Shown here: piece after piece, positions 21,900 to 41,455 of the stretch
How positions within the stretch are numbered: position 1 is the stretch's first letter
Layout: each line of letters opens with the position of its first letter
DNA from: Phlebopus portentosus
Taxonomy: Eukaryota; Basidiomycota; Agaricomycetes; Boletales; Boletinellaceae
Reading direction: 5' to 3'
DNA: 64,000 nucleotides
NCBI GenBank assembly: GCA_037892935.1
Contig: JAYXKI010000007.1
Span: 1,426,001 to 1,490,000, forward strand
Position numbers and translations under genes: made by a program
The notes under the pieces: model-generated
What the model was told of the DNA's origin: nothing
What the model saw: only the letters and a program-made list of their open reading frames with translations
Database searches by the model: none

Positions 21900-22395
21900 T
21901 CTAGGACTGAGTCATTCATATTCTGCATACCTCACTTTCGTCATGCGCTGTGCACACCTTTCTCGGCTGAGGCGAGTACGGGAAGAGGCATTGTTACATA
22001 AAGTTCATGGGAACCATCCTCACATGAAATCTAGAAACATATCGCAGTATACGATCAGACGACGTTGAAGAGATTCTAGTGCTGAATATCAGAACAAAAG
22101 AGCAGGACAATTGAGGTGGGAAGCAGATTCCGACCAGCCGGGGATTGCCGCTTGATATCGTAATGGAATAGGAACTCACTAATTATGTAACTTCAGATTA
22201 GAAATATTCATACAGGCAAATACCGGTCCTTTATGTTAGAATCAGAGTAAGAAGAGTAATATATGGCTTACTACTGAAGCAAGTGTCTCACACTGCTGAT
22301 TGATAAGCGATGTCAAAGAATCAGGCAAGGACAAGTATCAGACTAGTGTTTGTATGAGAGAAAGCTCCAACTCGCTTGAGGGGCGTTTGGAGAGA

Positions 22396-22441
22396 TGAAT
22401 TGAACTGCTACTCAGGATGGCTCGTTTGGCCTCCTTTTATA
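22396..22441 (-). promoter_or_regulatory. Core promoter and predicted start of retrotransposon RNA (3' LTR copy)
   Basis: Read on the minus strand, TATAAAAG (22441-22434) is followed 35 nt downstream by AGTTCAATTCA (22406-22396). The latter is exactly complementary to the sequence next to the 5' LTR, as expected for the RNA 5' end of a self-priming element. The matching promoter in the 5' LTR is TATAAAAG at 40153-40146 and AGTTCAATTCA at 40118-40108; that copy would drive the genomic RNA. Confidence 0.65.
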
Positions 22442-22941
22442 CTCTACAGGTGTGGCTATGCTGGGCTACTACTATAACTATCTACCTCAGTCTTTCTACT
22501 GACCATGTATACCTTCCAGCGCCTTCTACAAGGTGCTCCACTTGCTCCACCCTTTCCTTGTCAATTCCGTGCATTCCTTGTCAATTCCGATCGTACTGTA
22601 TGTTCTAGTTCGTTCTACTAGTTTCTTGCTGTGTACTTCAACGTCTGAGCTCTACTGTTATGGTCTAATGACTCTAGCACTTTCTGGTGCATACTTACTA
22701 TCCTCAGCTACTCTGCTGGCGTCTATACTGGTTCTGAGCTCCACTGATTTATTCTCTACTGTTCTATGGCCTTCTCTCCTTGGAGTTAGGACTTATGTTC
22801 TTCTTCCGACTCGGATGGCTGACTGATGCTGCTACTTTGCCTGAGCTAGTTATAAAAGCTTTCCTCCCGTCTACTACTCCTATGGATGCGTACACATCGC
22901 TTCCCTTCTTATCATCTTCCTGATTAGATTAACTTTCCTTA

Positions 22942-23682
22942 TCAGTGATCGTCGATCTCCATGGCTTCCGAGGTTCGGTGCCTGTGGGGTACTACATCTT
23001 CTTCTGGAAGTCCTGGGGTTTTTCCCACCGGCGTTCTATCATCTACCGGAAAGCTTCTCTTGTGGAGATATGTCGTCATTCTTGTGAACCCTTCTTCCGG
23101 TGGCATTGGAATCTTAATTGGACCAATCACGAACTTGATCCTATGTTCTATTGATATCTCTGTGACTCGTTCGTCCATAACTGATACTCCTTCTGCATCG
23201 ATGAGTCTAATGAATTCTTTAACTCTAGTTATCGTATTTTCTGCTATACGTCTTACTATTTCATTAGCTCCCCTTCTGTATGGTATGTCAATATTAATAT
23301 GAATAAATTGACATTCTTCTTTATGCTTCCGCTTTGGGAATTTAATCTGTACTCCTGCGTTCATTAGGTAGTCTCGTTCGTCATGTGAGAATACTGCTAC
23401 CATATGTTCAAATGTCACATAATTTGTATTAGGCTGTTGTATGCCTTCTTGAGTAACGTATCCTGGAAATACTCTATGTGTCCCTCGTATATCGAAGTTC
23501 ATTGCTAACACCTCTGTCATCAGGAGCGATGAGATTATTGTACAATAAATGTCCCATCCTATCTGCTGTGCTTGTTTGCATTTCTCGCAGTCATCCTTGA
23601 CTTCTGGCCATTGACTGGCTCGTCCTTGGTTAACTATTCTCTTTAATGTAGTTTCCAGCGTTCTCGCTTGTCGTGTGAACAT
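22942..23682 (-). CDS. U3-encoded 246-residue accessory protein (3' LTR copy)
   Basis: An intact ATG-to-TGA frame lies wholly in the U3 part of the LTR. It would therefore be present at the 3' end of the genomic RNA. The protein is hydrophilic and mixed alpha/beta in look, with an N-terminal basic region, a CEKCKQ pair of cysteines near residue 33, a basic segment (KFPKRKHKEECQF) in the middle, and an acidic/basic C-terminus. No membrane segment or known domain is recognised. The same ORF is identical in the 5' LTR (40654-41394). Just upstream in U3, TTGCTTTAG could be a splice acceptor, after which the first ATG is the ORF start. The position is like that of MMTV sag or HIV nef ORFs, which overlap U3, but there is no sequence similarity I can point to. 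Confidence 0.7.
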   Translation of the reverse strand: MFTRQARTLETTLKRIVNQGRASQWPEVKDDCEKCKQAQQIGWDIYCTIISSLLMTEVLAMNFDIRGTHRVFPGYVTQEGIQQPNTNYVTFEHMVAVFSHDERDYLMNAGVQIKFPKRKHKEECQFIHINIDIPYRRGANEIVRRIAENTITRVKEFIRLIDAEGVSVMDERVTEISIEHRIKFVIGPIKIPMPPEEGFTRMTTYLHKRSFPVDDRTPVGKTPGLPEEDVVPHRHRTSEAMEIDDH

Positions 23683-23738
23683 CTTGGTTATATGCTGTCA
23701 CGTGCACGCTATACTGCTGACTAAAGCAATTTCTAACA

Positions 23739-24157: not shown

Positions 24158-24300
24158 GATAAGAATTGCTTGATGTTTATGACGTGCGAGTAAGGTTTGA
24201 TGATGGTAGTAACTAAGAAAGGAGCGGCATCGCCGCGACATGCTACTTATGTCTCGTGAGCATGGGAATTTATTCCTTAGTATGTTTATGACGTACTTAT

Positions 24301-24570
24301 CTAATCTTCTTCTTGCTTGATCTCGTGATCGACTTCTTCTTCCTTGATTTCGCGCTCAATTTCCTCGTTCTTGATGATAATCGGCTCGATCTTCCGCCCA
24401 TTGTATTTAACCATTTGCCAGTTTCCTCTTCTGTCCTTTGCTGTTATGACATCGTTCGGATCGAAGGTCGGATGGTCTTGGACATCGTCCCAAGGGACGA
24501 TGTAGCGCTTGGGCTTCTGGTAGGGGCCCTGGCATTGGCGTTGGCGTTGGTTGCGACGATTAGGAGCCAT
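24301..24570 (-). CDS. 89-residue basic/acidic accessory protein of the retrotransposon
   Basis: An intact ATG-to-TAG frame starts MAPNRRNQRQRQ. The N-terminal half is Arg/Gln/Lys-rich and could bind nucleic acid or act as a nuclear signal. The last 25 residues alternate Glu/Asp with Ile, Lys and His (about NEEIEREIKEEEVDHEIKQEE) and could form a charged helix. A TATAAGG box lies about 60 bases upstream of the ATG, followed by a CU-rich leader, so it may have its own promoter rather than depend on splicing. No known family. Its function is unknown. Confidence 0.55.
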   Translation of the reverse strand: MAPNRRNQRQRQCQGPYQKPKRYIVPWDDVQDHPTFDPNDVITAKDRRGNWQMVKYNGRKIEPIIIKNEEIEREIKEEEVDHEIKQEED

Positions 24571-25268: not shown

Positions 25269-28200
25269 CTACAAGTCCTTGATTGTCCTTATTGCTCTAA
25301 TTCTTTCCTTCTTTGGTTTTGGGAGCCATTGCTTCAGCCATTGGTCCAAGGTCGCTGGTTTCGGTTTGCTTGGGTATTTCATATGGAATTCTCTAATTGC
25401 TTCAGCTGATCCTGCTAAGTCATCACTCCATATTTCCCAAGTATTATCTGCATCGCTATATCCTGTCCATTTGATTAGGTACTTGTAGGTTTCTCTTGAT
25501 TTCTTGACATTGAGTATGTTCTCCACTTCAAATTGTAATTCATCTCCTATTACAATTGGGTCTGGGTTGGTTGGAATCTGCCTTTTGGGATATTCTTTTT
25601 CTTTGTATGGGATTAATAATCCTGCATAGAATACTGGATATATTCGCATTCCTTTTGGCAGTTCGAGTTCATAATTGAGTTCGCCATGTTTCTTTATTAT
25701 CTTGTACGGCCCTAGGTTGCGTACTGCAAGCTTCCTTGTTGGCGTCAATAAGTCTATATTCTTTGCATCTACTAAGACTTTATCTCCAATTTTGAATTCT
25801 GGTTTCTTTCCTCGATGCTTATCTTCATATCTCTTCATCTGTTCTTGAGCTTGTTCCATTGCCTTTATAGCTGTTTCTTGTGCCGCTCGCTGTCTCTGTA
25901 TGTACTCCATAGCTCCTTCAGTATTCGACTTGGTCATTATGAACTCCATTCGTGGGTGCCGTCCATAGATCAAATAAAATGGTGACTGTTTTGTTGTACT
26001 ATGCCGCTTGTTATTGTACGCAAATTGTGCCAGTCGTAAATATTGGTCCCAGTTTGTTTGTTGATAATCAACATAACACCTTAGGTACTGTTCAAGTTCC
26101 TGATTAACTCGTTCAGACTGCCCATCCGTTTGAGGGTGGTATGCCGTGCTTAATGCTGGCATAATTCCTATCATTTGGTAGACAGCTAGGGTAAACTTAC
26201 TGGTAAATTGCGGACCTCGGTCCGTGGTGATCTTTTTGGGCATCCCATGTATCGCATATATTTCATTTACAAACAGTCTTGCTGTTTCTTGGGAGTCTGT
26301 TGTTTCTTTGCATGGAATGAAGGTCGCATATTTTGAAAATCTGTCCACTACTGTTAATATTGCATTATATCCTGAATCAGTCATGGGTACTCCTGTAATA
26401 AAATCCGCTGTAATGTGTTCCCATGGTTGTTCTGGTATTTCGAGTGGTTGTAGCGGAGGTTGTGTTTTTCCTCTTCTCGCCTTTGTTCTTTGGCATTTGT
26501 CGCAGGATTGTACATATTCTGTAATCCATTGTTCCATTTTTGGCCAATAATAATCTCTTTTGATTAGGTCAATCGTTACCTCTGGTCCTGGATGTCCTGC
26601 ACTTGGTGAATCGTGGTGGATTCTTACAATATCCTCTTTTAAACTATTGATTGGTGGTACTACTATTTTCCCTTTATAGTAATAGTAGTTGCCACTTTTC
26701 TCATAGTGCTCTCCTTCGATTTCTATTCCTTCTTTGCGATATCCTTCTTCTATCTGGTCCATGATAGTATTTTCTATTAGTTCTATCGTTCTGGCATTCC
26801 TTCCAATGAACACTTCTTCAGGTAATACTACTACGTCTTTATTGTCTTCTTCTGTTAATTCATAATCTGATCGTCTGGACAAGGCATCTGCTCTACTGTT
26901 TGCTCTTCCTGGTCGATATTCTATCTTGAAATTATATCGGCTTAGCTCAGTTGCCCATCTTGCTTGTCTTCGATTTAGTTTCCTTGCTGTCATGAACATT
27001 CTTAAGTTTGCTTGGTCGGATATTACCCTTATTTCGTGTTTTGCTCCTTCCAAATGGTGTCTCCAGACTTCGAATGCTTTAATTATAGCATATAACTCCT
27101 TATCTCCCACTGAATAATTTCGTTCTGTCGCAGTGAACGTTCCTGACCAATATGCTATTGGGTAAAGTTTTCCGTCTTCCTTTTCTTGTGATAGAACTGC
27201 TCCCATTGCTACATCAGACGCGTCAGTTTCTATTATAAACTGTTTCTCATAGTCAGGTCGTACTAGTATTGGTCCTGTGGTAAATGCTTCTTTTAATTTC
27301 TTGAAGGCTTCTTGTTGCTTTTCTCCCCATGTAAACATCTTTTTCTTTGATTGCAGGCTCGTTAGGGGTCGTACTATGGCCGAGTAATCTTTAATGAATT
27401 TTCTGTAGAAATTCGCGAATCCAATGAAGCGTCTGATGTCTCGTTTACTCGTTAAATCTGGCCATTCTTGTATTGCTTTGACTTTATACGGATCCATCTT
27501 TAGTCCTTCGTCATTTACCAAAAATCCTAGATAATCTAATTCCCTCTTGTTGAAATAGCATTTTTCTGGTTTTAAATAGAAATCTGCTTCTCGCAGTTTT
27601 TGCATAACTCTCTTCGTTAGTATCAGTAATTCTCCTTCTGTTTGGGCATAGATAATGATATCATCTAAGTATATTACTACTCCAGCTCCTATCATGTCTT
27701 CAAATAGCTCATTCATTGCTCGCTGAAAGACGGCAGGGGAGTTCATCATTCCAAATTGCATGACTGATGGTTCAAATACTCCTTGATGTGTTCGGAAAGC
27801 GGCTTTCCATTCATCTCCTCTTGCAATCCTGATGTTGTTGTATCCTGCTCTCATATCTAGAGTGGTAAAGATTTTAGCTTTCGCTAGTCCATCCGGTAGT
27901 GTATGCATTATTGGTATGGGGAAAGGATCTACTTTGCATATCTTGTTTACCTCTCGGTAATCTATTACCATTCTTGCTCCTGCATCTTTCTTTCCTACAA
28001 AGAATACTGGGGCTGCTATTTGTGATCTTGATCGTTGTATCCATCCTTTATCCAGGTTTTCCTTGATGAATTCTTTTACCGCTTCTTGTTCTAATTGTGT
28101 TAGTGAATAGATTGCTCGTTTCTTTGGCAATTCAACTCCTTCTTTAAACTCTATTTTCATATCCCATTGGGTATGTTTGGGTAGTCTCTTTGCCTGTTCT

Positions 28201-29867
28201 GCGCTGAATCTATCTTCAAACTCCCACAGTTCTCGTGGTACTAATTCTTTCCATTCCTTACTTCCAGTATCAGTCCTTCCTTCTTTAGCTGCTTTCTCTT
28301 GGGAGTACTTTTGTGCTATACTGCTATATTTGGTTAATTTCTTGCGTGCTTTCATATCTTCTTCTGATTCTGGCATTACTGCACTAACTTCCTTACCGTG
28401 GGAATTTCCTTCCTTATTGGGGTGCGACGCTTTTTCCAGTGGAAAAAGCGGATCAGTTTTTATTCCCACGTTAGATTTACTTCTTACCGAGTTTCTTTTA
28501 CCCTTCTTCTCGGTATATGCTTGATTTATTGACCGCTTGAATCTCTCATTTGGGTGACAGCTGCTCCCACTGAGTTCTTCGACAAACAGACTCTGTCGAA
28601 ATATGTTGCCTTGATCTTGCTGTCCGGACGACCCTGATGGGAACAATGTGCTAGGATCCACTCTTGGCGATTGATATCCTGCTGTTCCAACTCGCTTTGG
28701 TATTTTTCTTTGGCTTCCCTCACTTCCTCCTGATGTAGATTGTATTATTGAGGGTGGCATTACTGGCACGAGTTGCTCATCTCTCCAATGGTATTTTCCT
28801 CCATCTATTCCATAGAATATTTGATTCGGCACCTTCTTGGTCATTTTATTGAAACTTGTTGCTGTTTCAAAGTCTTGTTTGAACCTTGCCTCCATTGCCT
28901 CTGTAGCATTGTCCAGATTTACGCTTGTACTTACCTTATAGACTTTATTCCATGCCGTGAACGTTCTTCTTGATTTCATTGGTTCTTGCATAGTCTGTTC
29001 TGGAGCTGGAGGAGTTGGTTGTCTGGGCGGCGCTACAGGTGGTGTCGGTTGTGGAGGAGTTGGTGATCTTGGTGATGCCATAGCTTGTACTGGTGCTGGG
29101 GGTGTTGGTGCTCGTGGTACTATAATTGGTGCTATCAGGGGTTTGGTCTTTTGACTTACCACAGTACTGCTTTTACCTTTGTTCTGTGATATGGTAGATG
29201 GGAGTAGTATATTTATTTCATCTTCCTCTTCATCTGAATCAGAATCGATACAGCTTTGCGAGTAGTCCCATCGCGTTTGTTGCTCTATTTTTCTTCTTCC
29301 TTTCTTCTTATTCCTGTATCGTCTATAGTTCCGATTTAGATATTGCGTACCTTCAATCTGTGTTTTCCCATATTGGGTACTGATTTGTCCTGTTTGAAAA
29401 TTAATGTTGGGTTTGTATCGAGTTATCCAATCATGTCCTAGGATAAACCTATCATTGTTAGTCTGCAACACTGCAATTTCCATATTTCCTGTGCTTACTC
29501 CTGTATCTACCCACGCCCGTACACTCTCTTTCCATCCACCCACTGTTGTTGATCCATCTGCATTTACTATACTTGCATTCCCCTGTCTAGGTACTGTTTT
29601 TAGTCCTAATTGTTTGACTGTGTTAGGACTAATTGTAGTGATTCCTGATCCAGAATCCATTAATGCAATTATTGGAATGCGCCTCTTTTCCCCTTGAGTA
29701 AGATAGATCTTCAATTTTGGTTGGTTGGAACTAGGGTGTACTGTCGTCCATCGGCGTGATACTTGTGGATTAATAGAAGTATTATTTTTACTATTCTTCT
29801 TTTCCTCTGAATCCACTTCGTCTCCACTCTCATCCGCCGATATTCTGAGAGTGGCTCTTAAAAATCC
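25269..29867 (-). CDS. pol: Pol polyprotein (protease, RT, RNase H, integrase, chromodomain)
   Basis: An uninterrupted frame runs from just after a TGA at 29870-29868 to the stop at 25269. There is no ATG near its start, so it is expressed as a fusion with Gag by a -1 shift. Numbering from the GTG at 29816: aspartic protease DSG at 54-56; reverse transcriptase with YLDD near 715; RNase H (TDASD near 865); integrase HHCC zinc domain (HHDSPSAGH...CDKC, from about 1065); integrase D,D,E in TADFI (about 1138), TTDRGPQF (about 1198) and GQSERVNQ (about 1234); and a C-terminal chromodomain (VENILNVKKSRETYKYLIKW). Order and chromodomain place it in the chromovirus branch of Ty3/gypsy (Metaviridae). 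All catalytic residues I can check are present, so it looks functional. Confidence 0.95.
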   Translation of the reverse strand, partial: GFLRATLRISADESGDEVDSEEKKNSKNNTSINPQVSRRWTTVHPSSNQPKLKIYLTQGEKRRIPIIALMDSGSGITTISPNTVKQLGLKTVPRQGNASIVNADGSTTVGGWKESVRAWVDTGVSTGNMEIAVLQTNNDRFILGHDWITRYKPNINFQTGQISTQYGKTQIEGTQYLNRNYRRYRNKKKGRRKIEQQTRWDYSQSCIDSDSDEEEDEINILLPSTISQNKGKSSTVVSQKTKPLIAPIIVPRAPTPPAPVQAMASPRSPTPPQPTPPVAPPRQPTPPAPEQTMQEPMKSRRTFTAWNKVYKVSTSVNLDNATEAMEARFKQDFETATSFNKMTKKVPNQIFYGIDGGKYHWRDEQLVPVMPPSIIQSTSGGSEGSQRKIPKRVGTAGYQSPRVDPSTLFPSGSSGQQDQGNIFRQSLFVEELSGSSCHPNERFKRSINQAYTEKKGKRNSVRSKSNVGIKTDPLFPLEKASHPNKEGNSHGKEVSAVMPESEEDMKARKKLTKYSSIAQKYSQEKAAKEGRTDTGSKEWKELVPRELWEFEDRFSAEQAKRLPKHTQWDMKIEFKEGVELPKKRAIYSLTQLEQEAVKEFIKENLDKGWIQRSRSQIAAPVFFVGKKDAGARMVIDYREVNKICKVDPFPIPIMHTLPDGLAKAKIFTTLDMRAGYNNIRIARGDEWKAAFRTHQGVFEPSVMQFGMMNSPAVFQRAMNELFEDMIGAGVVIYLDDIIIYAQTEGELLILTKRVMQKLREADFYLKPEKCYFNKRELDYLGFLVNDEGLKMDPYKVKAIQEWPDLTSKRDIRRFIGFANFYRKFIKDYSAIVRPLTSLQSKKKMFTWGEKQQEAFKKLKEAFTTGPILVRPDYEKQFIIETDASDVAMGAVLSQEKEDGKLYPIAYWSGTFTATERNYSVGDKELYAIIKAFEVWRHHLEGAKHEIRVISDQANLRMFMTARKLNRRQARWATELSRYNFKIEYRPGRANSRADALSRRSDYELTEEDNKDVVVLPEEVFIGRNARTIELIENTIMDQIEEGYRKEGIEIEGEHYEKSGNYYYYKGKIVVPPINSLKEDIVRIHHDSPSAGHPGPEVTIDLIKRDYYWPKMEQWITEYVQSCDKCQRTKARRGKTQPPLQPLEIPEQPWEHITADFITGVPMTDSGYNAILTVVDRFSKYATFIPCKETTDSQETARLFVNEIYAIHGMPKKITTDRGPQFTSKFTLAVYQMIGIMPALSTAYHPQTDGQSERVNQELEQYLRCYVDYQQTNWDQYLRLAQFAYNNKRHSTTKQSPFYLIYGRHPRMEFIMTKSNTEGAMEYIQRQRAAQETAIKAMEQAQEQMKRYEDKHRGKKPEFKIGDKVLVDAKNIDLLTPTRKLAVRNLGPYKIIKKHGELNYELELPKGMRIYPVFYAGLLIPYKEKEYPKRQIPTNPDPIVIGDELQFEVENILNVKKSRETYKYLIKWTGYSDADNTWEIWSDDLAGSAEAIREFHMKYPSKPKPATLDQWLKQWLPKPKKERIRAIRTIKDL
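29857..29867 (-). other. Gag-Pol -1 frameshift site
   Basis: On the sense strand the Gag frame ends GAG GAT TTT TAA. The Pol frame is closed by a TGA immediately before GGA TTT TTA AGA. The two frames therefore overlap only over GGATTTTTAA, and a -1 slip must happen there, most simply by tRNA-Phe on the T5 run with the stop codon in the A site. Splicing or re-initiation is the alternative, but no in-frame ATG favours it. Confidence 0.6.
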
Positions 29868-30781
29868 TCAGGTTGGCGTTGAGCTTCATTTTGATCTGCG
29901 CCTTGCTCACTGAGGCCTTCTTCATCTTCTTCTTCATTGACGTCTAATTCTCGGCGCTTAAATCTTGACCCTTTCGCTCTTCCTCGGGTTTTTCCTTGAT
30001 TTCTTCCCGAAGGTCTACTTGTCTGTTTTCTGCAGTCTCTAGCGAAATGTCCTAGTGTACCACAATTGTAACACTTAATAGATCCTTTATTAAAACTTCC
30101 TTGTGGTTTCTTGACTCGTCTGACATCTACCTCCATCGGTGTATAGTCTGGTACAAATGATGGTTTTGCATTTGCTCCATATTGTGGCAAATGCACTCCA
30201 TGTATTGTTCTTGAAAATGCTAAGCCTGCTTCGCTATCTTTTGCATTTCTCATCCATGTCTCCAGGTCCCATGCCTGGCTCCCTGGTTGGGCTGTTAATC
30301 TTGCTAGGATTGTCTCTCGTAATCCTGATTTATACATGGACTTTCGCACTACTGCGTTGTAGTCTGGCGGGAGGTATGCTGATATTCGATCAAATTCCAT
30401 ATTATAATCTAATATGGATGCTCTCCCTTGTCGGATGTTATGTATTTTCTTTACCGCATCTTCTGTTACATCATAATGTTTTCCATGTTGAGCTCTTAGG
30501 AACCCTTTAAAGGCTTCATAATTTGGCCAGGCACCTGCTGCGGTTCCCACTAATCCTGCTACACCACGACTTTGAACATGCGGCGCTATCCATACTGATG
30601 CATTTCCTTTTAAACATTGACATACCAATTTTGTTTTATTTTCGTCTCCTGTGATTTTATTCGCATCAAACCGCAAGTCCATTTGTGTGAGGAATGCTTC
30701 AACATCTTCTTTACTTGTTCCTTTAAATGTCGGTGCCTTAATAATATTCCCAATTGGGATTGGATTTGGGTTTGCCGCCAT
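29858..30781 (-). CDS. gag: Gag polyprotein
   Basis: 307 residues from the ATG at 30781 to TAA at 29858. The N-terminal two thirds form a Ty3/gypsy capsid-like (retrotrans_gag) region, with FKGTSKEDVEAFLTQMDLRF and the later ILDYNMEFDRI and YKSGLRETI. A single nucleocapsid zinc knuckle CYNCGTLGHFARDC (CX2CX4HX4C) lies at about 236-249, followed by a basic Arg/Gly stretch and an acidic tail. The ATG is the first one on the unspliced RNA after about 1.67 kb of leader. It packages the element's RNA. Confidence 0.93.
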   Translation of the reverse strand: MAANPNPIPIGNIIKAPTFKGTSKEDVEAFLTQMDLRFDANKITGDENKTKLVCQCLKGNASVWIAPHVQSRGVAGLVGTAAGAWPNYEAFKGFLRAQHGKHYDVTEDAVKKIHNIRQGRASILDYNMEFDRISAYLPPDYNAVVRKSMYKSGLRETILARLTAQPGSQAWDLETWMRNAKDSEAGLAFSRTIHGVHLPQYGANAKPSFVPDYTPMEVDVRRVKKPQGSFNKGSIKCYNCGTLGHFARDCRKQTSRPSGRNQGKTRGRAKGSRFKRRELDVNEEEDEEGLSEQGADQNEAQRQPEDF

Positions 30782-31436
30782 ATTATTATATTGTTACAGA
30801 GGTCTCAAAAAGGTCTTCTATCTGTTCTAATAGTTCCTGACTACTAAATCCGTTTATTCTTGGTGTCCCTAATCCGACTCCGAGATGGAGGAGGTTGGGC
30901 TATCGGAATTATTAGAGGATAACTCAAATGTATTAATTTGAGTGCCTACCTCTATCGTCTCTGGATTAGTATTTCCCTGATCAGGTTCTCCGAGTTCTCC
31001 TGAAGCCTCTGAAGCCGGTCTGAGTGGTAGCGTTAAATCGTTTATGACTGGGATGTTCTGTCTTGGGCTACCTACTACGCTTTCTTCGTCTGCGTCTGAC
31101 TCTGGCGGAGAATCTGGGTGTCGACTGTGGTTCCCTGAGTAATCGTTAAACAGGGTCGTCGTTGGTGGAATGCTCGATGAAGCTGATCTATAGCTTGATG
31201 AGCTACTTTCTGATTCCGAAGAGTGTGGAGGGTATGGGTACCTGTCTGCGCTATATCCGCTTGGTGCTCCTCCTGTTCGTCTTCCTCTCTGCTGTCTGAT
31301 CCTTGGCCCTGGTATTCTCGCTACGACTTCTGACAACTGTACAAGGGTGTTTTCGATGTGTGTTATCGTCCTTGTAATTTCTTCGCTGTTCTCTGCTGCT
31401 GTCTCGTTACCCCTCCTGACGTCTTCTTCCAAGCGC

Positions 31437-33411
31437 TGTAGTGCCCTGGCCAGTCCTGTGCCAGGACACTCATACTATGGCTCTCCCCTACTTCAGATAC
31501 CATATCCCTTCGCCGCCTACACCTCAGAGGACCAGGGCATACTCATACCACACTCTAGAGGCCATACGAGCACATATCTATAGATTCTAGCCTACGCTTC
31601 CCCCTGCGGCGCCCTCCAAGAGCCCAGACGAGTCCGCCGCTGGCTCCCTGGCACCCATACACATCCGCCGAAGGCTCCTACCCAGCACCAGACACCATAG
31701 GAGATGTCCCCCAATCATTATAGGCCTTCGTTATTACAATTTCTCATACGTACAGCCTCGAGGCGGATTTGGACACCCCTGTGGCGGCCCCCCCAAGCCT
31801 CAGATTGGTCCGGCGGCCACTCAGGCGTCCTCAGGTGCCCTCGCCGAGGCCTCCTACAACTTACCAGGCAGTCCCCCAAGGCCTATGGATTTATCTAGTA
31901 TCATCCCTGCTCATATGCCACTAAAGGCTGCAGTTTTACGAATCCGCCGCCAATCGAGCGGCGAGTTGCAGATCCGCCGCTCCGGCGCCCTCCTTAGTTA
32001 CCATGGATCGCCTACACTCTATATTGAGTGTGGCGGCGGCCTTGGGCGGCCTAGGGACCCTGACTGATGCGCCCTCGATCTCATATATGCAATATCGGCC
32101 TCCGAACATCAGCCCCGATGTTTCCCGACTTCCCCCCAAGCGGCGGGCGACTCTAGACCATATATGGCAGTCAGGCATGTGGTACAGCGGCGTGCCAAGC
32201 CACCGACCGCCGCTGCCAAGCCAGACTCCGCCGGCGCCCGTTTTATTGCAGATACACGATATATCATACTATTGGATAGCCCCCTCACGTTGGCGCTGCC
32301 GTACGCCTCCTAGATGCTCCGGCGGCGGCCCTTGGCGAGCCCAGTGACTCAGGAGATGTTGTCAGACAGTAGGACTCATCGGCGAGAGCAGTAGAGTATA
32401 TATAGAGTGTATATTCATCAGTAGACGAGAGAGATACTCGAGCACATACATAGCAGAGAGCTTTCACAGCATACAAAGGCCAGGGTTCGAGATTCCCTCA
32501 CTCTGAGCTCCCCCTCATGTACTGAGCTCCCCCATTGACTATATACTACCCTTGACTCGTCGTTCTATTCTCCCTTGGCGCCTCTGACATTTAGTGTGTG
32601 AGTTAGGACTGGGAACCTACCCCCAAACGTCCGCCGCACTCCATTGTACCTGTCGGGCAGCCTCTATTCGACCTCGGCGGCCCTCCGGCGACACAGGCCT
32701 TCTGTCCTACACCCCTGCGGCGTCTTTTCCAGTTACTCGCCGCACGTTGTCCCTTATATTCATCATATACGGCCCCTACCTTTCATTTATCCGGTTTACG
32801 CTACCGCGGCGGATTTGTACAAGCTCCCTCGTCCCTGGCGGCACCCTATTCGACCTCGGCGGCCCTCCGGCGACCCAGGCCTCCTTTCCTATTCCCCTTC
32901 GGCGTCCTTTTCATCTGCTGGCCGCACGTTGCCCCTTATATTCATCGTATACGGTCCCTCCCTTTTGTTTATCCAGTTTACACTACCGCGGCGGATTTGT
33001 ACACGCTCCCTCGTCCCCGGCGGCCCCCTATTCGACCTCGGCGGCCCTCCGGCGACACAGGCCTTCCATTGTATTCCCCCTCGGCGTCTTTTTCACCTAC
33101 TCGCCGCACGTTACGCCTCATATTCATCATATACAGTTTCTAGCTTCCCCCTACTGAGATTGCGCTACTCCGGCGGACTCCTGTGACCCCCCCTTCTGTC
33201 CGGCGGACCTACTACTCCTTTCCTTTCATACCTCGGCGTCCCTAGGCCACTCCCCGACGTCTCTGACGGTTTTGGCACCTGCCAGGTGGTTAGTGGTTAG
33301 AGTCTGATAGCTTGAGGCTTCGTTTCTGGAGGTTTCTTCACACATTCAGCTCCCTTAGTAGGACGGACATCTGTAGCACCTTCAGATAGAGAGACCACCC
33401 AAAATACCACA
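31437..33411 (+). repeat. 5' LTR of nested element
   Basis: 1975 bp, CpG-rich. It differs from the 3' copy at six sites, all C/T or G/A changes within CpG, and at one C-run length. It contains three tandem units with 182-bp period starting at 32666, 32848 and 33030 (ATTCGACCTCGGCGGCCCTC), the third partly degenerate. A tRNA-like GGTGGTTAGTGGTTAGAG segment lies near the end (about 33285). Confidence 0.9.
32666..33210 (+). repeat. Three 182-bp tandem repeats in the LTR of the nested element
   Basis: Units start at 32666, 32848 and 33030, and each holds CGCCGCACGTT and a CGGCGGATTTG or CGGCGGACTCC box at constant spacing. The same array is at 38358, 38540 and 38722 in the other LTR. The apparent open frames of about 180 codons here are by-products of the repeat. 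Confidence 0.85.
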
Positions 33412-33414
33412 TCT

Positions 33415-33434
33415 TGGAGCCCACCTGCGAGGGA
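33415..33434 (+). other. Candidate primer-binding site of nested element
   Basis: TGGAGCCCACCTGCGAGGGA starts 3 bases after the 5' LTR. It begins with TGG, as expected for pairing with a tRNA 3' CCA end. I cannot assign the tRNA. Confidence 0.45.
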
Positions 33435-33528
33435 GCTGTTTGTTTTTGAAGACCCTTCCCTCCCACCCTTATTTTCGCCGTTTTTCAACTTTTCAATACT
33501 CCGGCGGACTGCCAAGGCCTTCGGCGCC

Positions 33529-35910
33529 ATGACACTCCCTCAATTCATCGATCCTGATGATCTCCCATTCGCCGGACCCTCTCCTACCATCTCAGGCTTC
33601 ACTATGCCACTCCCTGGCGACAAATCTATCCCCAAAATCGATGTTTCTGGCTCCCCAACCTCCATACCTAGGTTTTTCGACACTGTCTACCTCCTTGGAC
33701 GAACCGCTGGCCTCTCAGACTGCCATATCATCGCCTGGGCTCGCTTCTATGCACCGGCGAAAGAACAACCTCTCTGGAGGCACTGCACCGAAGTGGCAGG
33801 CAATAGCTATTCTGCCTTCCGAGACGCTGCACTCAAGATGTACCCACATTCCCGACCGGTTTACACCCTCCAAGACCTCCGGCACCTCATTTTATCGACT
33901 CAGGCACTCCCCGGCTTCACCCTAGAGTCCTACGGCGGATTTCTGCAAGACTTCCATAGAGTTTCTGGGTACTTACTGCGAAATGGCGAAATTTCGACGT
34001 TTGAAGAACAACGAATGTTTATGGAAGGAATCCCCGCCGCCTATCACAGGGAACTCAACTTCTCCCTTCGCCTGACTGACCCAGAACACGCCGCCGGCGT
34101 TCCCTGGCTGGTAGAAGCAGTGACAGACGAAATCCAGCGAATTGTCAAGGTACAACAGGTTTTAGCATATACCGAGTCCCCAGCACCCCTAGTCGAGGCC
34201 TACTATGCCAGCACAAGTCCCCCAGCCATCAGTCACATCCAGAACACCCTCGGCGTCGACGCCCATGCCAAAAACAAGCCGCCGATGCCTGCAGCACCAG
34301 CAGCCAATGGTCTATATGCCTCGCCAGCGAATGTATGGCCTCCTCAGCCAAAACTGAGCCCCTCGCTGATGCCTACCAATGCCCTGATCACTTCGCCGGC
34401 CCCATGGCATGTCCAGTGGCCTACTCTAGCCTTGCCCTCGACATTTTCGCCGGTTGCACACCAGGCCCAGCCCACACACTTTCTGGACATGCAAAAATGT
34501 TCTTCAGCCCCCAATGCATTCGCCGCTGACTTTCCTGCTCCGCCGCCGCCGCCCCCTGCCAAATGCAAAGCCTCGGCGGATGATTCTAGCCTACAGAACA
34601 TCACTACCATCCCTCTGGCGTACCCCCCAGCCCTGGCGGCCTCATGTAATGTCCTAGACCAATGGCCCATACCTGGTGTCTCTCTCATTCCAGCGACTCA
34701 TGAACGGTTCTATTGGCGGCCAGTTCCCGGCGCCCCTGCTCCCCATTTGGCCTCGGCGAACCTCAGGCAACCTTCCAAGCATCCCCCTAAAGGTTCCCAA
34801 GCCCCGCCGGCGGCTCAGGCCTGCAGCATTTGTGGTTTTATGATGCACCGAATAGCGAAATGCCCTACACAAAGCTTCCTACTCAATTCTGGCATTACTG
34901 TAGCTGACATGCGCGGCCGCCTCATGCAACCTGATGGCAGGCCTTTCACTGGCAATCACTCTGGAGGCCGCATTTTAGATCAGCTGAATCGTTACTTTAC
35001 TCGGAACGTGAACATGATACCTCTTGGACTGCAAATACCGATTCTACCGCTCCCGGATGACCCAGGCCTCGCTTCGGCACCCCAGGAACTGCCTTCCAAC
35101 CGCCGCCGCAAGCCTCCTAGACAATGGGGCGTCCCCCAGGACACTCCAGGCGCCGGCCACATGCCTCAGGCGAAGTTACAGGGCCAGACGCCGCCGAATG
35201 ACACCTGCGGCGCCTCTATGGTACTTGAACAGCTCCCAGACATGTCCCCCAGCCCGGCCACTGCTCCCCAAGTCAGGAAAGTTCCCTCACCCTTCGGCAC
35301 CATCCTCCCCAAGCCCACGGCGGCGATTCCAGATGACCCAGATGAGCCAATTAATCCGCCGATCCAACACAGCAAAGCGTACATGAAGGCCTACTCACGT
35401 CAAGCATCCCTCACCAATGCCGCAGACACGCCGCTGCCCTGGAAACCACCGGCCGGCTTCCCTAAGGTCCTAGACAAGCCCCTAGCACCAGCAGTCGTCC
35501 CCTTGCATGAGATCAACGTCCGCCTGAATGATACATTACAGGTTAATGGTGTCCTCGACTCTGGAAGTTCATTTATTGGTATTCCCCGACGTATATGGCG
35601 ACAAATAAAATCGCTGGCCTGCATTTCCAACCCCACACACATCCAGACAGCCTCGCTGAACCCCAGCCAGAGCTCCCACATCATCCCCTGTGTCAAAATT
35701 TCACTCCCTGGGTTCTCTATGCATGCGCCGGTCTACATACTCGAAAATGCGCCGTTTGACCTCCTCCTTGGCCGGCCCTTCTTTGCACACACTCATGCTG
35801 TCACTGCAGACCTCGACGAACACTTCCAGACCCTCTACATCACAGATCCAGTCACCGGCGAAGTTTTCTGCTTGCCTACAAGCCCCAGAACGCCTCCGCC
35901 GGTGCCCTAA
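33529..35910 (+). CDS. Gag-aspartic protease polyprotein of nested element
   Basis: One intact frame of 793 residues from the ATG at 33529. The N-terminal 210 residues have the length and helical pattern of a retroelement capsid (FYAPAKEQPLWRHCTEVAG, LQDLRHLILSTQALPGF). A Pro/Ala-rich linker follows, then a zinc knuckle CSICGFMMHRIAKC (CX2CX4HX4C) at about 435-448. The C-terminal 130 residues are a retropepsin-like domain with VLDSGSSFIGIPRRIW and the distal ILENAPFDLLLGRPFF. No polymerase or integrase follows before the 3' LTR. The intact frame implies recent activity or selection, so the element probably supplies its own capsid and maturation protease and borrows reverse transcriptase and integrase. 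Confidence 0.88.
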   Translation: MTLPQFIDPDDLPFAGPSPTISGFTMPLPGDKSIPKIDVSGSPTSIPRFFDTVYLLGRTAGLSDCHIIAWARFYAPAKEQPLWRHCTEVAGNSYSAFRDAALKMYPHSRPVYTLQDLRHLILSTQALPGFTLESYGGFLQDFHRVSGYLLRNGEISTFEEQRMFMEGIPAAYHRELNFSLRLTDPEHAAGVPWLVEAVTDEIQRIVKVQQVLAYTESPAPLVEAYYASTSPPAISHIQNTLGVDAHAKNKPPMPAAPAANGLYASPANVWPPQPKLSPSLMPTNALITSPAPWHVQWPTLALPSTFSPVAHQAQPTHFLDMQKCSSAPNAFAADFPAPPPPPPAKCKASADDSSLQNITTIPLAYPPALAASCNVLDQWPIPGVSLIPATHERFYWRPVPGAPAPHLASANLRQPSKHPPKGSQAPPAAQACSICGFMMHRIAKCPTQSFLLNSGITVADMRGRLMQPDGRPFTGNHSGGRILDQLNRYFTRNVNMIPLGLQIPILPLPDDPGLASAPQELPSNRRRKPPRQWGVPQDTPGAGHMPQAKLQGQTPPNDTCGASMVLEQLPDMSPSPATAPQVRKVPSPFGTILPKPTAAIPDDPDEPINPPIQHSKAYMKAYSRQASLTNAADTPLPWKPPAGFPKVLDKPLAPAVVPLHEINVRLNDTLQVNGVLDSGSSFIGIPRRIWRQIKSLACISNPTHIQTASLNPSQSSHIIPCVKISLPGFSMHAPVYILENAPFDLLLGRPFFAHTHAVTADLDEHFQTLYITDPVTGEVFCLPTSPRTPPPVP

Positions 35911-36149
35911 CAAAGGCCTAACTGATGTAGCACACTGCAGCGAACCCCCCCAGCACCGGTACCCGAATCAGGACACCCTTTAATCACTATCTCATGCCCA
36001 ACACTATCCCTCACCATCCCGCCTTAGCTCCCAGGCAACCTCATCGCTGGTACAGCCCCGGCAATCAAAGAAATGTACGCCTCGGCGACATTTTCAATGT
36101 CTACAAGCTCCCCCGCCCCAGAATTCTCATGGCCGGCCCCTGCGGCGGC

Positions 36150-36860
36150 CAGAGACGCCTCCCTACACTACAATACCCCCCAGACGCCGCCGAAGCCTGC
36201 GGCGCCTCCTCCGAGTGATGCCCACTCCTCCTACACATTTTCGGCGAAATGCCCCCCCCAAGCCCCCCTCAGTGCAATACAGCCAATCCCTGGCCACGCC
36301 GCCAGCCCGGCTATGCACAGACACCTTCCCTGAGGCGAAATGAAGCCTCCCCAGATGCCGCCAATGCCTGCGGCGCCTCCCCTGAGTGATGCCCACTCCT
36401 CCTACACATTTTCGGCGAAATGCCCCCCCCCAAGCCCCCCTCAGTGCAATACAGCCAATCCCTGGCCACGCCACCAGCCCGGCTATGCACAGACACCTCC
36501 CCTCAGGCGAAATGAAGCCTCCCCAGACGCCGCCGATGCCTGCGGCGCCTCCTCCGAGTGATGCCCACTCCTCCTACACATTTTTGGCAAAATGCCCCCC
36601 CAAGCCCCCCTCAGTGCAGTACACCCAACCCCTGGCCACGCCGCCAGCCCGGCTATGCACAGACACCTTCCCTGAGGCGAAATGAAGCCTCCCCAGACGC
36701 CGCTGATGCCTGCGGCGCCTCCCCTGAGTGATGCCCACTCCTCCTACTCATTTTCGGCGAAATGCCCCCCCAACCCCCCCTCAGTGCTATACAGCCAATT
36801 CCTGGCCTCGGCGCCACTCCGGCCACACACAGACATATCCCCTTAGGCCAAGAGACGCCT
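36150..36860 (+). repeat. Four tandem repeats of about 171 bp in nested element
   Basis: Copies of GATGCCCACTCCTCCTAC start at 36217, 36388, 36560 and 36730, with spacings of 171, 172 and 170. Each copy contains a C-rich run and AGGCGAAATGAAGCC. They lie between the Gag-protease ORF and the 3' LTR and contain only short frames. Copies differ at scattered bases and by C-run length. Confidence 0.85.
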
Positions 36861-37129
36861 CCCCATGCATCTACGCCACCGCCGAACACTGGCACACACT
36901 GGAACAAACACCTGCGGCGACACCAGCCCTCCGAAGCGGCCAATACTTGAGATTTCACAAATCCATCCACCGCCAACCTGGCCCCTTCGTCCCATACCCT
37001 CCAAATTCACTCCTCTATCACCCCCTTCTATCGGCGACCAGCCACAGCACCATACAGCCCTTATTTCAACTTCGGCCCACTGTATACAGCCTTTTTTTTT
37101 AATGATTTTTTTATATAGTAACCTGGAGA

Positions 37130-39103
37130 TGTAGTGCCCTGGCCAGTCCTGTGCCAGGACACTCATACTATGGCTCTCCCCTACTTCAGATACCATATCC
37201 CTTCGCCGCCTACACCTCAGAGGACCAGGGCATACTCATACCACACTCTAGAGGCCATACGAGCACATATCTATAGATTCTAGCCTACGCTTCCCCTGCG
37301 GCGCCCTCCAAGAGCCCAGACGAGTCCGCCGCTGGCTCCCTGGCACCCATACACATCCGCCGAAGGCTCCTACCCAGCACCAGACACCATAGGAGATGTC
37401 CCCCAATCATTATAGGCCTTCGTTATTACAATTTCTCATACGTACAGCCTCGAGGTGGATTTGGACACCCCTGTGGCGGCCCCCCCAAGCCTCAGATTGG
37501 TCCGGCGGCCACTCAGGCGTCCTCAGGTGCCCTCGCCGAGGCCTCCTACAACTTACCAGGCAGTCCCCCAAGGCCTATGGATTTATCTAGTATCATCCCT
37601 GCTCATATGCCACTAAAGGCTGCAGTTTTACGAATCCGCCGCCAATCGAGCGGCGAGTTGCAGATCCGCCGCTCCGGCGCCCTCCTTAGTTACCATGGAT
37701 CGCCTACACTCTATATTGAGTGTGGCGGCGGCCTTGGGCGGCCTAGGGACCCTGACTGATGCGCCCTCGATCTCATATATGCAATATCGGCCTCCGAACA
37801 TCAGCCCCGACGTTTCCCGACTTCCCCCCAAGCGGCGGGCGACTCTAGACCATATATGGCAGTCAGGCATGTGGTACAGCGGCGTGCCAAGCCACCGACC
37901 GCCGCTGCCAAGCCAGACTCCGCCGGCGCCCGTTTTATTGCAGATACATGATATATCATACTATTGGATAGCCCCCTCACGTTGGCGCTGCCGTACGCCT
38001 CCTAGATGCTCCGGCGGCGGCCCTTGGCGAGCCCAGTGACTCAGGAGATGTTGTCAGACAGTAGGACTCATCGGCGAGAGCAGTAGAGTATATATAGAGT
38101 GTATATTCATCAGTAGACGAGAGAGATACTCGAGCACATACATAGCAGAGAGCTTTCACAGCATACAAAGGCCAGGGTTCGAGATTCCCTCACTCTGAGC
38201 TCCCCCTCATGTACTGAGCTCCCCCATTGACTATATACTACCCTTGACTCGTCGTTCTATTCTCCCTTGGCGCCTCTGACATTTAGTGTGTGAGTTAGGA
38301 CTGGGAACCTACCCCCAAATGTCCGCTGCACTCCATTGTACCTGTCGGGCAGCCTCTATTCGACCTCGGCGGCCCTCCGGCGACACAGGCCTTCTGTCCT
38401 ACACCCCTGCGGCGTCTTTTCCAGTTACTCACCGCACGTTGTCCCTTATATTCATCATATACGGCCCCTACCTTTCATTTATCCGGTTTACGCTACCGCG
38501 GCGGATTTGTACAAGCTCCCTCGTCCCTGGCGGCACCCTATTCGACCTCGGCGGCCCTCCGGCGACCCAGGCCTCCTTTCCTATTCCCCTTCGGCGTCCT
38601 TTTCATCTGCTGGCCGCACGTTGCCCCTTATATTCATCGTATACGGTCCCTCCCTTTTGTTTATCCAGTTTACACTACCGCGGCGGATTTGTACACGCTC
38701 CCTCGTCCCCGGCGGCCCCCTATTCGACCTCGGCGGCCCTCCGGCGACACAGGCCTTCCATTGTATTCCCCCTCGGCGTCTTTTTCACCTACTCGCCGCA
38801 CGTTACGCCTCATATTCATCATATACAGTTTCTAGCTTCCCCCTACTGAGATTGCGCTACTCCGGCGGACTCCTGTGACCCCCCCTTCTGTCCGGCGGAC
38901 CTACTACTCCTTTCCTTTCATACCTCGGCGTCCCTAGGCCACTCCCCGACGTCTCTGACGGTTTTGGCACCTGCCAGGTGGTTAGTGGTTAGAGTCTGAT
39001 AGCTTGAGGCTTCGTTTCTGGAGGTTTCTTCACACATTCAGCTCCCTTAGTAGGACGGACATCTGTAGCACCTTCAGATAGAGAGACCACCCAAAATACC
39101 ACA
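37130..39103 (+). repeat. 3' LTR of nested element
   Basis: 1974 bp. Differences from the 5' LTR are CpG transitions (for example GAGGTGG for GAGGCGG, AAATGTCCGCTGC for AAACGTCCGCCGC, ACTCACCG for ACTCGCCG) and one missing C in a C-run near 37294. The region just before it is T-rich and ends GGAGA, a weak polypurine tract. Confidence 0.9.
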
Positions 39104-39384
39104 GCGCTGTAACTTTACTATGGCTTGGTTGTGAAACGCACTTTCGATTGCCGTGATCTGTTCCTGCCTTCGCCGATATTCCTTGATCGTGTCCTTGAGC
39201 TTGGTGATTGCCTCGACTCCCTCCTTGAAACCTTCCTGTAACCGTTCCGTCCTCTCGTATATGTACCAGGCAAGTCTTCCAATAGCGTCCCCGCTAGGAT
39301 CTGTTGAAACCAGGCTTCGTCCGAAGGCAATGAGTATTCCGGTGGCAATGCAAAAGAACCAAAAGTAAATCGTCGCGTAATCCA

Positions 39385-39433
39385 CTAAACACTTGGTTAG
39401 TATTTCTCAGTTCTGTAAAATTTTAGTACTTAC
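39385..39433 (-). other. Leader intron that creates a start codon
   Basis: On the sense strand, donor GTAAGT follows TTAAAA, a perfect branch-like TACTAAC lies 11 bases before the acceptor GTGTTTAG, and TGGATTACGC follows. Joining gives AAAATGGAT: an ATG with A at -3 and G at +4, in frame with the membrane/coiled-coil ORF. A second possible donor 4 bases downstream (GTACTA) also yields ATG at the junction, and in addition keeps the frame continuous with the upstream ORF. Confidence 0.6.
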
Positions 39434-39922
39434 TTTTAATTTCCAGTAGTCTCCTTTAATCAAGTAAGTCAGGGCTTGATGTAAACAATTCTTATGTTGG
39501 AATGTCCCGTAAATCGCGTATCGGTATTTGGCAATGCTCTTCCCAAACTCTTCGTCAGTTACTGGGGTGCCGTTATAAATTGGATGCGCGGGAATTAGGT
39601 GTCCTGTTTCCAAAAGGAATTGCTGTACTTCAGTTACGACTTTGAGTACTTCTTGGGCCACTGCGACGTACTGGTCAAAATACTGAAAGAATGCTAAGTC
39701 GATGATGTCAAGAATCTTACTACTTTTGTTCCTAGTAGTATTGATAGATACTTCTTGTTCCGCGTGTAAAGTGGTTAATTCGTTGATAACTACGATGTGG
39801 AAGTTTAAACTTTCTTTAAACTGCTCACGTCGTTCTTGTAAATCCAGTTTGTTAGTTAGGTTGACCCCCTGAAGAACCAGAGCTACTAACCAATAGTAGA
39901 TCGGATTGGCTAGAGGTGCGTA
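39434..39922 (-). other. ATG-less open frame in the leader of the outer retrotransposon
   Basis: The sense strand is open for 163 codons from just after a TGA (39925-39923) to the leader intron donor, with no ATG in this or any frame. The translation looks protein-like: a hydrophobic start (NPIYYWLVALVLQGV), then charged helical sequence. It may be translated from a non-AUG codon, or be the N-terminal part of the downstream membrane/coiled-coil protein through the alternative in-frame donor. It may also be simply a leader with a purged start. Confidence 0.4.
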
Positions 39923-39943: not shown

Positions 39944-40107
39944 AATGTTAGAATCAGAGTAAGAAGAGTAATATATGGCTTACTACTGAAGCAAGTGTCT
40001 CACACTGCTGATTGATAAGCGATGTCAAAGAATCAGGCAAGGACAAGTATCAGACTAGTGTTTGTATGAGAGAAAGCTCCAACTCGCTTGAGGGGCGTTT
40101 GGAGAGA

Positions 40108-40153
40108 TGAATTGAACTGCTACTCAGGATGGCTCGTTTGGCCTCCTTTTATA
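40108..40153 (-). promoter_or_regulatory. Core promoter of retrotransposon genomic RNA
   Basis: TATAAAAG (40153-40146 on the minus strand) lies 35 nt upstream of the predicted start AGTTCAATTCA (40118-40108), which pairs with the PBS. No ATG occurs between this start and the gag ATG once the nested insertion is ignored. Confidence 0.65.
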
Positions 40154-40653
40154 CTCTACAGGTGTGGCTATGCTGGGCTACTACTATAACTATCTACCTC
40201 AGTCTTTCTACTGACCATGTATACCTTCCAGCGCCTTCTACAAGGTGCTCCACTTGCTCCACCCTTTCCTTGTCAATTCCGTGCATTCCTTGTCAATTCC
40301 GATCGTACTGTATGTTCTAGTTCGTTCTACTAGTTTCTTGCTGTGTACTTCAACGTCTGAGCTCTACTGTTATGGTCTAATGACTCTAGCACTTTCTGGT
40401 GCATACTTACTATCCTCAGCTACTCTGCTGGCGTCTATACTGGTTCTGAGCTCCACTGATTTATTCTCTACTGTTCTATGGCCTTCTCTCCTTGGAGTTA
40501 GGACTTATGTTCTTCTTCCGACTCGGATGGCTGACTGATGCTGCTACTTTGCCTGAGCTAGTTATAAAAGCTTTCCTCCCGTCTACTACTCCTATGGATG
40601 CGTACACATCGCTTCCCTTCTTATCATCTTCCTGATTAGATTAACTTTCCTTA

Positions 40654-41394
40654 TCAGTGATCGTCGATCTCCATGGCTTCCGAGGTTCGGTGCCTGTGGG
40701 GTACTACATCTTCTTCTGGAAGTCCTGGGGTTTTTCCCACCGGCGTTCTATCATCTACCGGAAAGCTTCTCTTGTGGAGATATGTCGTCATTCTTGTGAA
40801 CCCTTCTTCCGGTGGCATTGGAATCTTAATTGGACCAATCACGAACTTGATCCTATGTTCTATTGATATCTCTGTGACTCGTTCGTCCATAACTGATACT
40901 CCTTCTGCATCGATGAGTCTAATGAATTCTTTAACTCTAGTTATCGTATTTTCTGCTATACGTCTTACTATTTCATTAGCTCCCCTTCTGTATGGTATGT
41001 CAATATTAATATGAATAAATTGACATTCTTCTTTATGCTTCCGCTTTGGGAATTTAATCTGTACTCCTGCGTTCATTAGGTAGTCTCGTTCGTCATGTGA
41101 GAATACTGCTACCATATGTTCAAATGTCACATAATTTGTATTAGGCTGTTGTATGCCTTCTTGAGTAACGTATCCTGGAAATACTCTATGTGTCCCTCGT
41201 ATATCGAAGTTCATTGCTAACACCTCTGTCATCAGGAGCGATGAGATTATTGTACAATAAATGTCCCATCCTATCTGCTGTGCTTGTTTGCATTTCTCGC
41301 AGTCATCCTTGACTTCTGGCCATTGACTGGCTCGTCCTTGGTTAACTATTCTCTTTAATGTAGTTTCCAGCGTTCTCGCTTGTCGTGTGAACAT
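40654..41394 (-). CDS. U3-encoded accessory protein (5' LTR copy)
   Basis: Same 246 residues as the copy at 22942-23682. Here it lies upstream of the predicted start of the genomic RNA, so this copy is expressed only if another promoter reads through it. Confidence 0.6.
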   Translation of the reverse strand: MFTRQARTLETTLKRIVNQGRASQWPEVKDDCEKCKQAQQIGWDIYCTIISSLLMTEVLAMNFDIRGTHRVFPGYVTQEGIQQPNTNYVTFEHMVAVFSHDERDYLMNAGVQIKFPKRKHKEECQFIHINIDIPYRRGANEIVRRIAENTITRVKEFIRLIDAEGVSVMDERVTEISIEHRIKFVIGPIKIPMPPEEGFTRMTTYLHKRSFPVDDRTPVGKTPGLPEEDVVPHRHRTSEAMEIDDH

Positions 41395-41455
41395 CTTGGT
41401 TATATGCTGTCACGTGCACGCTATACTGCTGACTAAAGCAATTTCTAACACTTTA

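Follow-up and report, generated by a model that had tools for sequence, protein, structure and literature searches.

Introduction

How might a retrotransposon draw two different products, Gag-Pol and an accessory protein, from one leader transcript when the accessory frame lies upstream of gag and its start codon is not found whole in the DNA? The question is raised by an element in the window studied here (the whole stretch of DNA that was analysed, 64,000 nucleotides in length), in whose leader a short predicted intron parts the A of an ATG from its TG. Few cases are known of LTR elements that share one transcript among genome, Gag-Pol and accessory proteins, and annotation from DNA alone can miss starts that are formed by splicing. 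If the reading developed below is true, a single tiny intron, together with ribosomal scanning for AUG, decides between the products, and a start codon interrupted by an intron makes a switch out of a fixed gene order; a second, intron-less family in the same genome (family 2) has an ATG in its DNA at that place.

The element and its nested insertion

The element lies on the minus strand between a 5′ LTR (39945..41450) and a 3′ LTR (22233..23738), which align over 1506 nt with TG..CA ends, are 100% identical and are accompanied by the target-site duplication TAAAG, as is characteristic of Ty3/Gypsy chromoviruses. In Pfam searches, the product of gag (29858..30781, minus strand, ATG at 30781) matches PF19259 (E 3.4e-13) and PF00098 (E 3.5e-8), giving a Ty3 capsid and a CCHC zinc knuckle, and pol (25269..29867, minus strand) encodes protease, reverse transcriptase (RT), RNase H and integrase in that order, with a C-terminal chromodomain (PF00385, E 5.5e-12). 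With this gag and this pol, the element is therefore a chromodomain-bearing Ty3/Gypsy LTR retrotransposon, and the intron and the accessory frame (ORF2) sit in its leader. A TATA box read from the sequence (TATAAAAGGAGG, 40142..40153, minus strand) would set the start of the leader transcript. By eye, no TGG stands directly behind the LTR.

A 7.7-kb LTR element is nested in the window copy (31437..39103, plus strand; LTRs at 31437–33411 and 37130–39103, 99.6% alike; duplication GCGCT) and cuts ORF2 into a 5′ part in exon 2 (39104..39384, minus strand) and a 3′ part with the stop codon (30869..31436, minus strand), so that the window copy is no working example. Each LTR of the nested element is about 1975 nt long; the element also contains repeats of about 171 nt in tandem (36178–36780) and a long frame with a protease domain, the one frame that was scanned and in which no RT was found, and may be non-autonomous. 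A DNA search of the window's own genome (G000, 38.4 Mb, 23 contigs) gave ten copies of the outer element, that in the window included, and it is on the comparison of these copies that most of what follows is built.

Further frames lie near and inside the LTRs. One of 246 codons is found within the LTR upstream of the TATA box (40657–41394 and 22945–23682, both minus strand), with a pN/pS of 0.13 over six LTRs; it is open in the window and in L046 and has one or two stops in L039, L042, L043 and L048. A relative, 50% identical, comes from a 1.6-kb contig, and Pfam gave nothing for this U3 frame or for the relative; MMTV sag, an LTR-encoded protein, offers a comparison. Past pol and ahead of the 3′ LTR come two small frames. 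One (24298–24570, minus strand) has stops in L044 and L048, and the other (24056–24157 and 23889–24005, minus strand) reads as a small hydrophobic protein split by another 50-nt intron (24055–24006), which is present in all three copies that reach there and for which no intron-less junction was found. A TATA-like stretch lies near 24632.

An intron within a start codon

On the minus strand, exon 1 ends with the A at 39434, the intron (39385..39433, 49 nt) runs from 39433 to 39385 as GTAAGT...TACTAACCAAGTGTTTAG, and exon 2 begins with the T at 39384, the splice join of the window copy reading TTAAAATGGATTAC. The initial annotation had described an intron of 49 nt, with donor GTAAGT, branch TACTAAC and acceptor TTTAG, that splits A from TG; the sequence confirms this, the signals being kept in nine of the ten copies while the tenth lacks exactly the intron. 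Read as strings, all nine introns begin with GTAAG, carry TACTAA followed by C or T, and end in TTTAG before TGGATTA. They measure 49 nt in the window, 50 nt in six copies and 53 and 54 nt in one copy each. The window intron is one base short relative to the others, a loss that the initial annotation did not notice, and its donor GTAAGT is found in no other copy, the remaining donors reading GTAAGG or GTAAGA.

When the intron-bearing copies are aligned, 16 of the 34 positions between the signals vary as against 2 of the 16 signal positions (Fisher test, p 0.026). The two signal variants that enter this test are caused by the aligner's placement of the window's missing base, since all nine strings read GTAAG, TACTAA and TTTAG. 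A strict pattern of donor, branch and acceptor, composed after the site had been seen, has a single match on the window's two strands, at the intron itself, and none in 100 shuffles of the minus strand that preserve dinucleotides. With the pattern loosened, six places match on the minus strand (shuffle mean 1.7) and none on the plus strand.

Two other ways of joining the frames were considered and rejected. A second donor, GTACTA, would bring ORF1 (the frame in exon 1) into frame with ORF2 in the window copy solely because that copy has lost a base, and it is absent from L043, L050 and L051; for a programmed frameshift at the join, the slippery heptamer is absent by eye.

A genomic copy without the intron

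The tenth copy (L010/L039, hereafter L039; G000:C1:2350260 region, minus strand) reads GGAGATTAAAATGGATTACACG. Exactly the GT..AG stretch is missing, the join cannot be shifted in either direction, and the junction is the same as that predicted for the window, as expected from a DNA copy of spliced RNA. L039 keeps an LTR (96% identical), exon 1 (95%) and about 100 nt of exon 2 (91%), after which it enters unrelated DNA (6668 and below; perhaps another element or a rearrangement). Genome-wide, a search for the junction pattern with up to two mismatches gave one exact match, which is L039, and three matches with two mismatches, and the reversed control gave two matches. We take L039 to be, probably, the genomic copy of a spliced RNA. 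The predicted splice and its junction are supported by this copy, by the signals in the nine others and by the ATG that the related family has at the same place and in the same phase.

Conserved frames on both sides of the intron

With the A at 39434, exon 2 reads MDYATIYFWFF..., in which residues 4–22 of ORF2 are hydrophobic (mean Kyte-Doolittle 1.92); the charged part that follows, judged by eye, is probably a coiled coil. The join had been said to open a membrane/coiled-coil frame of 281 codons, and this length is found in five of the eight other intron-bearing copies, although the window's own frame is broken by the nested element, a point that the initial annotation missed; L048 has 313 codons, and the frame is broken at codon 108 in L050 and at codon 22 in L051. 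Over all pairs of six copies (L040, L042, L043, L044, L046 and L048; the window, L050, L051 and L039 were left out as broken), pN/pS is 0.25 in ORF2 and 1.16 and 1.01 in the other two frames, with 61 of 113 variable sites at third positions. The same six copies give 0.40 for the first 85 codons and 0.21 for the remainder. For the exon-2 part (the first 85–89 codons), seven copies give 0.35, with 0.80 and 0.81 in the other frames, and nine copies 0.48, with 0.49 and 0.80. ORF2 is thus under purifying selection, which is weaker over its start; the start is less well supported than the bulk because pN/pS is 0.35–0.48 there and a second frame reaches 0.49 with nine copies.

A protein database search with ORF2 found one relative only, a hypothetical protein of Sanghuangporus sanghuang (P0003) that is 96% identical and from which the genome is taken to be probably that of a Sanghuangporus; its annotation begins at a later in-frame ATG, absent from the window and L040, and does not include the spliced start. 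No Pfam domain was found in the whole ORF2 of L040. ORF2 lies upstream of gag, whereas errantivirus env, as in gypsy, lies downstream of pol.

Exon 1 is itself occupied by a conserved frame without an ATG, ORF1 (39434..39847, minus strand, 138 codons), which the initial annotation had overlooked and which is new here. No ATG is found in it in the window. Read from the CTG at 39847 in seven copies (the window, L040, L042, L043, L044, L046 and L048), ORF1 has a pN/pS of 0.12, with 30 of 46 variable sites at third positions; the ratio is 0.15 when L039 is added and 0.17 with all ten copies, across which there are eight in-frame stops, none of them in the set of eight formed by the seven copies and L039. 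The CTG in AACAAACTGG is kept in ten of ten copies and is most likely the start of ORF1, although an in-frame CTG further upstream, or some other non-AUG codon, is possible. Without splicing, the frame would run into the intron and stop after 141 codons in L040, L042, L043, L044, L046 and L048, would have 146 codons in the window owing to the missing intron base, and is broken at once in L050 and L051. Pfam gave nothing for ORF1 and the protein database no relative, and a search of the PDB sequences with an ORF1 profile had a lowest E of 0.057; the structure model is helical, with a mean pLDDT of 64.6, too weak for a fold search.

A leader free of ATG in the window copy

It had further been claimed that unspliced RNA offers no start before Gag, and here the window agrees. 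From the TATA box (40153) to the ATG of gag (30781) there is not one ATG in the 1,050 + 655 nt (1,705 nt) that flank the nested element, so that the gag ATG is the first of the unspliced leader outside the insertion. Dinucleotide shuffles of the leader contain a mean of 12.75 ATG and a minimum of 4 (0 of 2,000 at zero), and synonymous-codon shuffles of ORF1 and the two parts of ORF2 a mean of 6.2, with no zero among 5,000; in the neighbouring gag, 898 nt contain 27 ATG. The six other copies that span the whole stretch from TATA to gag count 0 in L040 (1,702 nt), 1 in L046, 2 in L042, 2 in L044, 4 in L048 and 6 in L043. Between the LTR end and the equivalent of the nested site (~840 nt), the decayed copies L050 and L051 have 10 and 9 ATG, the other intron-bearing copies 0 to 2. 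It seems that ATG is kept out while copies are active and enters with decay, as would be expected if scanning ribosomes must reach gag. Gag itself has a pN/pS of 0.09 in the window and five further copies (four in-frame stops among them; L040 was dropped for its short match).

A second family with an ATG in its DNA at that place

Family 2 is more numerous in the same genome (68 matches to its ORF1), and its Gag is 33% identical to that of the window family. Its ORF1 and the window's ORF1 are homologous (local score 70, against a best of 56 in 2,000 shuffles), and the family-2 frame has a pN/pS of 0.21 in 11 of the 14 copies fetched, the three with stops being left out. No intron stands at the end of this ORF1; instead, 13 of 14 copies have a genomic ATG, with a second ATG 9 nt further on in 13 of 14, and in the two copies checked the ATG is in phase 2 relative to ORF1, matching the intron-less L039. 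Past the first 100 nt fetched, no ATG precedes ORF2 of family 2 in three of the 14 copies (L052, L054 and L065) and one to six do in the other 11. Over the 163 codons after the ATG, pN/pS is 0.33 in the continued ORF1 frame as against 0.67 in the ORF2 frame; with the continued frame the more constrained, family-2 ORF1 is probably longer and overlaps ORF2.

Between the families, the ORF2 proteins are alike in layout and not in sequence: no significant homology was found for ORF2 or for the ORF1 extension (1264 and 713 of 2,000 shuffles, respectively, were as good or better). The window family looks like a version of the family-2 layout in which an intron has entered the start codon and ORF2 has been cleared of ATG. 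In family 2, a donor before ORF1 (GTAAGTATTG; L052 and L054, around 397–466) is unchanged in 14 of 14 copies, a possible acceptor would extend ORF1 upstream in frame, and another possible acceptor lies just before gag; family 2 may use other splices.

A proposed switch and its alternatives

We consider it likely that the retention or removal of the 49–54-nt leader intron chooses the product, spliced RNA giving ORF2 and unspliced RNA Gag-Pol, with ORF1 made from a non-AUG start. Removal of the intron would form AAAAUGG at the join, the first AUG of the spliced RNA, and ORF2 with its membrane stretch and coiled coil would be translated from it. Were the intron retained, there would be no AUG before gag, and scanning ribosomes would travel some 1.7 kb before initiating at Gag-Pol, on an RNA that would double as the genome of the element. 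ORF1, producible from both spliced and unspliced RNA, would have a non-AUG start, most probably CUG, and this would be sufficiently leaky for scanning to continue. The ATG-free leader, together with selection on both ORF2 and Gag, most likely points to a switch that selects either Gag-Pol or the accessory protein. Several observations weigh against this reading, namely that the intron-less copy is single and truncated, that five of the six other whole-stretch copies have one to six ATG between TATA and gag, that selection is weak over the ORF2 start, that in family 2 it is the overlapping ORF1 frame that is the more constrained, that P0003 is annotated from a later in-frame ATG of its own, and that a further AG lies upstream of the acceptor.

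Splicing might instead be constitutive or nearly complete, with ORF2 a plain gene whose start happens to be split, Gag coming from a separate promoter or by reinitiation, and no switch at all. We think this unlikely. The splice sites are strong, and the TATA-like stretch and the small frames near the 3′ end suggest that the leader is not needed by every gene; however, genomic copies keep the intron in nine of ten cases, so it is mostly unspliced RNA that is copied, and the ATG-free run extends across the whole of ORF2 as far as gag, a feature superfluous in an RNA that served ORF2 alone. In each of two family-2 copies, the 1,905 nt of ORF2 hold 30 ATG.

Rather improbable, too, is that the main product of the join is a longer ORF1 of 226 codons, which after splicing runs on over ORF2 in the other frame. 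This longer frame is open in six copies, its family-2 counterpart is the frame under the stronger constraint, and with all nine copies its ratio in the window family nearly equals that of ORF2 (0.49 and 0.48). In the seven younger copies, however, the extension has a pN/pS of 0.80 as against 0.35 for ORF2, in L048 it stops after four codons, and past the overlap only ORF2 is constrained (0.21); the extension is in any case compatible with an ORF2 start at the join.

We give equally little weight to the possibility that L039 preserves an ancestral state without the intron, which the other copies would have gained, in which case L039 would be silent on present splicing. Family 2 has no intron at the corresponding place, and in the tree of ten copies the split that sets L039 beside the intron-bearing L050 and L051 is weak (39% bootstrap in IQ-TREE, 0.86 in FastTree), although L050 and L051 group together with 98% support. 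Yet these two, the most diverged copies, carry the intron. Rooted there, the simplest history is a single loss in L039 by reverse transcription of spliced RNA, while the tree alone fits both loss and a copy that never had the intron. Even a gained intron would have boundaries at exactly GT..AG and a branch point, and the ATG of ORF2 requires its removal.

The AG that lies 7 nt upstream of the acceptor (CCAAG before TGT) would, if used, fuse ORF1 and ORF2 in frame into about 421 residues from the CUG and make the ATG at the other acceptor incidental, a reading that we strongly doubt. It is kept in nine of nine intron-bearing copies, the fused frame is open in the six copies in which both frames are unbroken (421 codons in five, 440 in one), and a fusion would explain strong selection on both. 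Against it, this AG is merely 4–5 nt from the branch A in eight of nine copies (the 1 nt that the script gave for L046 used a different CTAA), L039 displays the TTTAG join, and family 2 keeps ORF1 and ORF2 in separate frames, with an ATG present in the DNA. That the intron is a chance string in a dead leader without function can be given next to no credence, for although the window copy itself is broken by the nested insertion, the signals stand in nine copies, both flanking frames are under selection, L039 shows exact excision and the strict pattern occurs in none of 100 shuffles.

Comparison with known systems

In a literature search that was incomplete and covered the larger result lists by their best matches, we found no retrotransposon with a start codon split by an intron, and hence nothing to refute the initial annotation's statement that none of this kind had been described, whereas spliced accessory or Gag RNAs were met in Cer1, gypsy (env), BARE1 and EVADE. 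Among papers on start codons created by splicing, as judged from titles or the opening of abstracts, none dealt with retrotransposons.

The Ogre/Tat elements of plants carry an additional frame ahead of gag, and their spliced intron lies within the polyprotein between protease and RT; in the window element, pol is one open frame of 1532 codons from protease to chromodomain, and the intron is in the leader. Murine leukaemia virus glyco-Gag is a CUG-started leader frame that extends Gag. ORF1, whose CUG start is putative, resembles it in being a leader frame and differs in ending before gag, to which it is not joined.

In BARE1 of barley (PMC3735527) and EVADE of Arabidopsis (PMC12786077), products are reported to be balanced by the retention or removal of an intron; splicing there creates a stop after Gag, whereas here it would create a start. 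The env of Drosophila gypsy is likewise a non-Gag protein made from spliced RNA with a start supplied through splicing, but there it is reported to be the start codon of gag that is brought to env (PMC8096092), whereas here an intron divides the codon itself and the accessory frame precedes gag.

Cer1 of C. elegans is also a Ty3/Gypsy element, in which, as far as the available text of the reports extends, unspliced RNA yields Gag-Pol and a spliced RNA of five exons, with exons 1–3 in the gag frame, yields the accessory protein CERV, needed for the export of unspliced RNA (PMC10309623; PMC3315495). On the reading proposed above, the window element would likewise pair an unspliced Gag-Pol RNA with a spliced RNA for a novel accessory protein. 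A splice-formed ATG is not described for CERV in those portions of the reports, while here a single tiny intron upstream of gag would form the ATG. By analogy with CERV, ORF2 could possibly assist unspliced RNA, but a role in assembly or transport would fit better with a membrane anchor. Taken together, the locus may represent a complex fungal retroelement, with a 1.7-kb AUG-purged leader in which intron retention alone decides between Gag-Pol and a splice-started accessory protein; ahead of that protein's frame would stand a conserved frame with a non-AUG start, and additional genes would lie close to the 3′ LTR and within it. On this broader view, which we hold tentatively and at somewhat less than even confidence, a splicing programme like that of complex retroviruses would have evolved apart in a mushroom.
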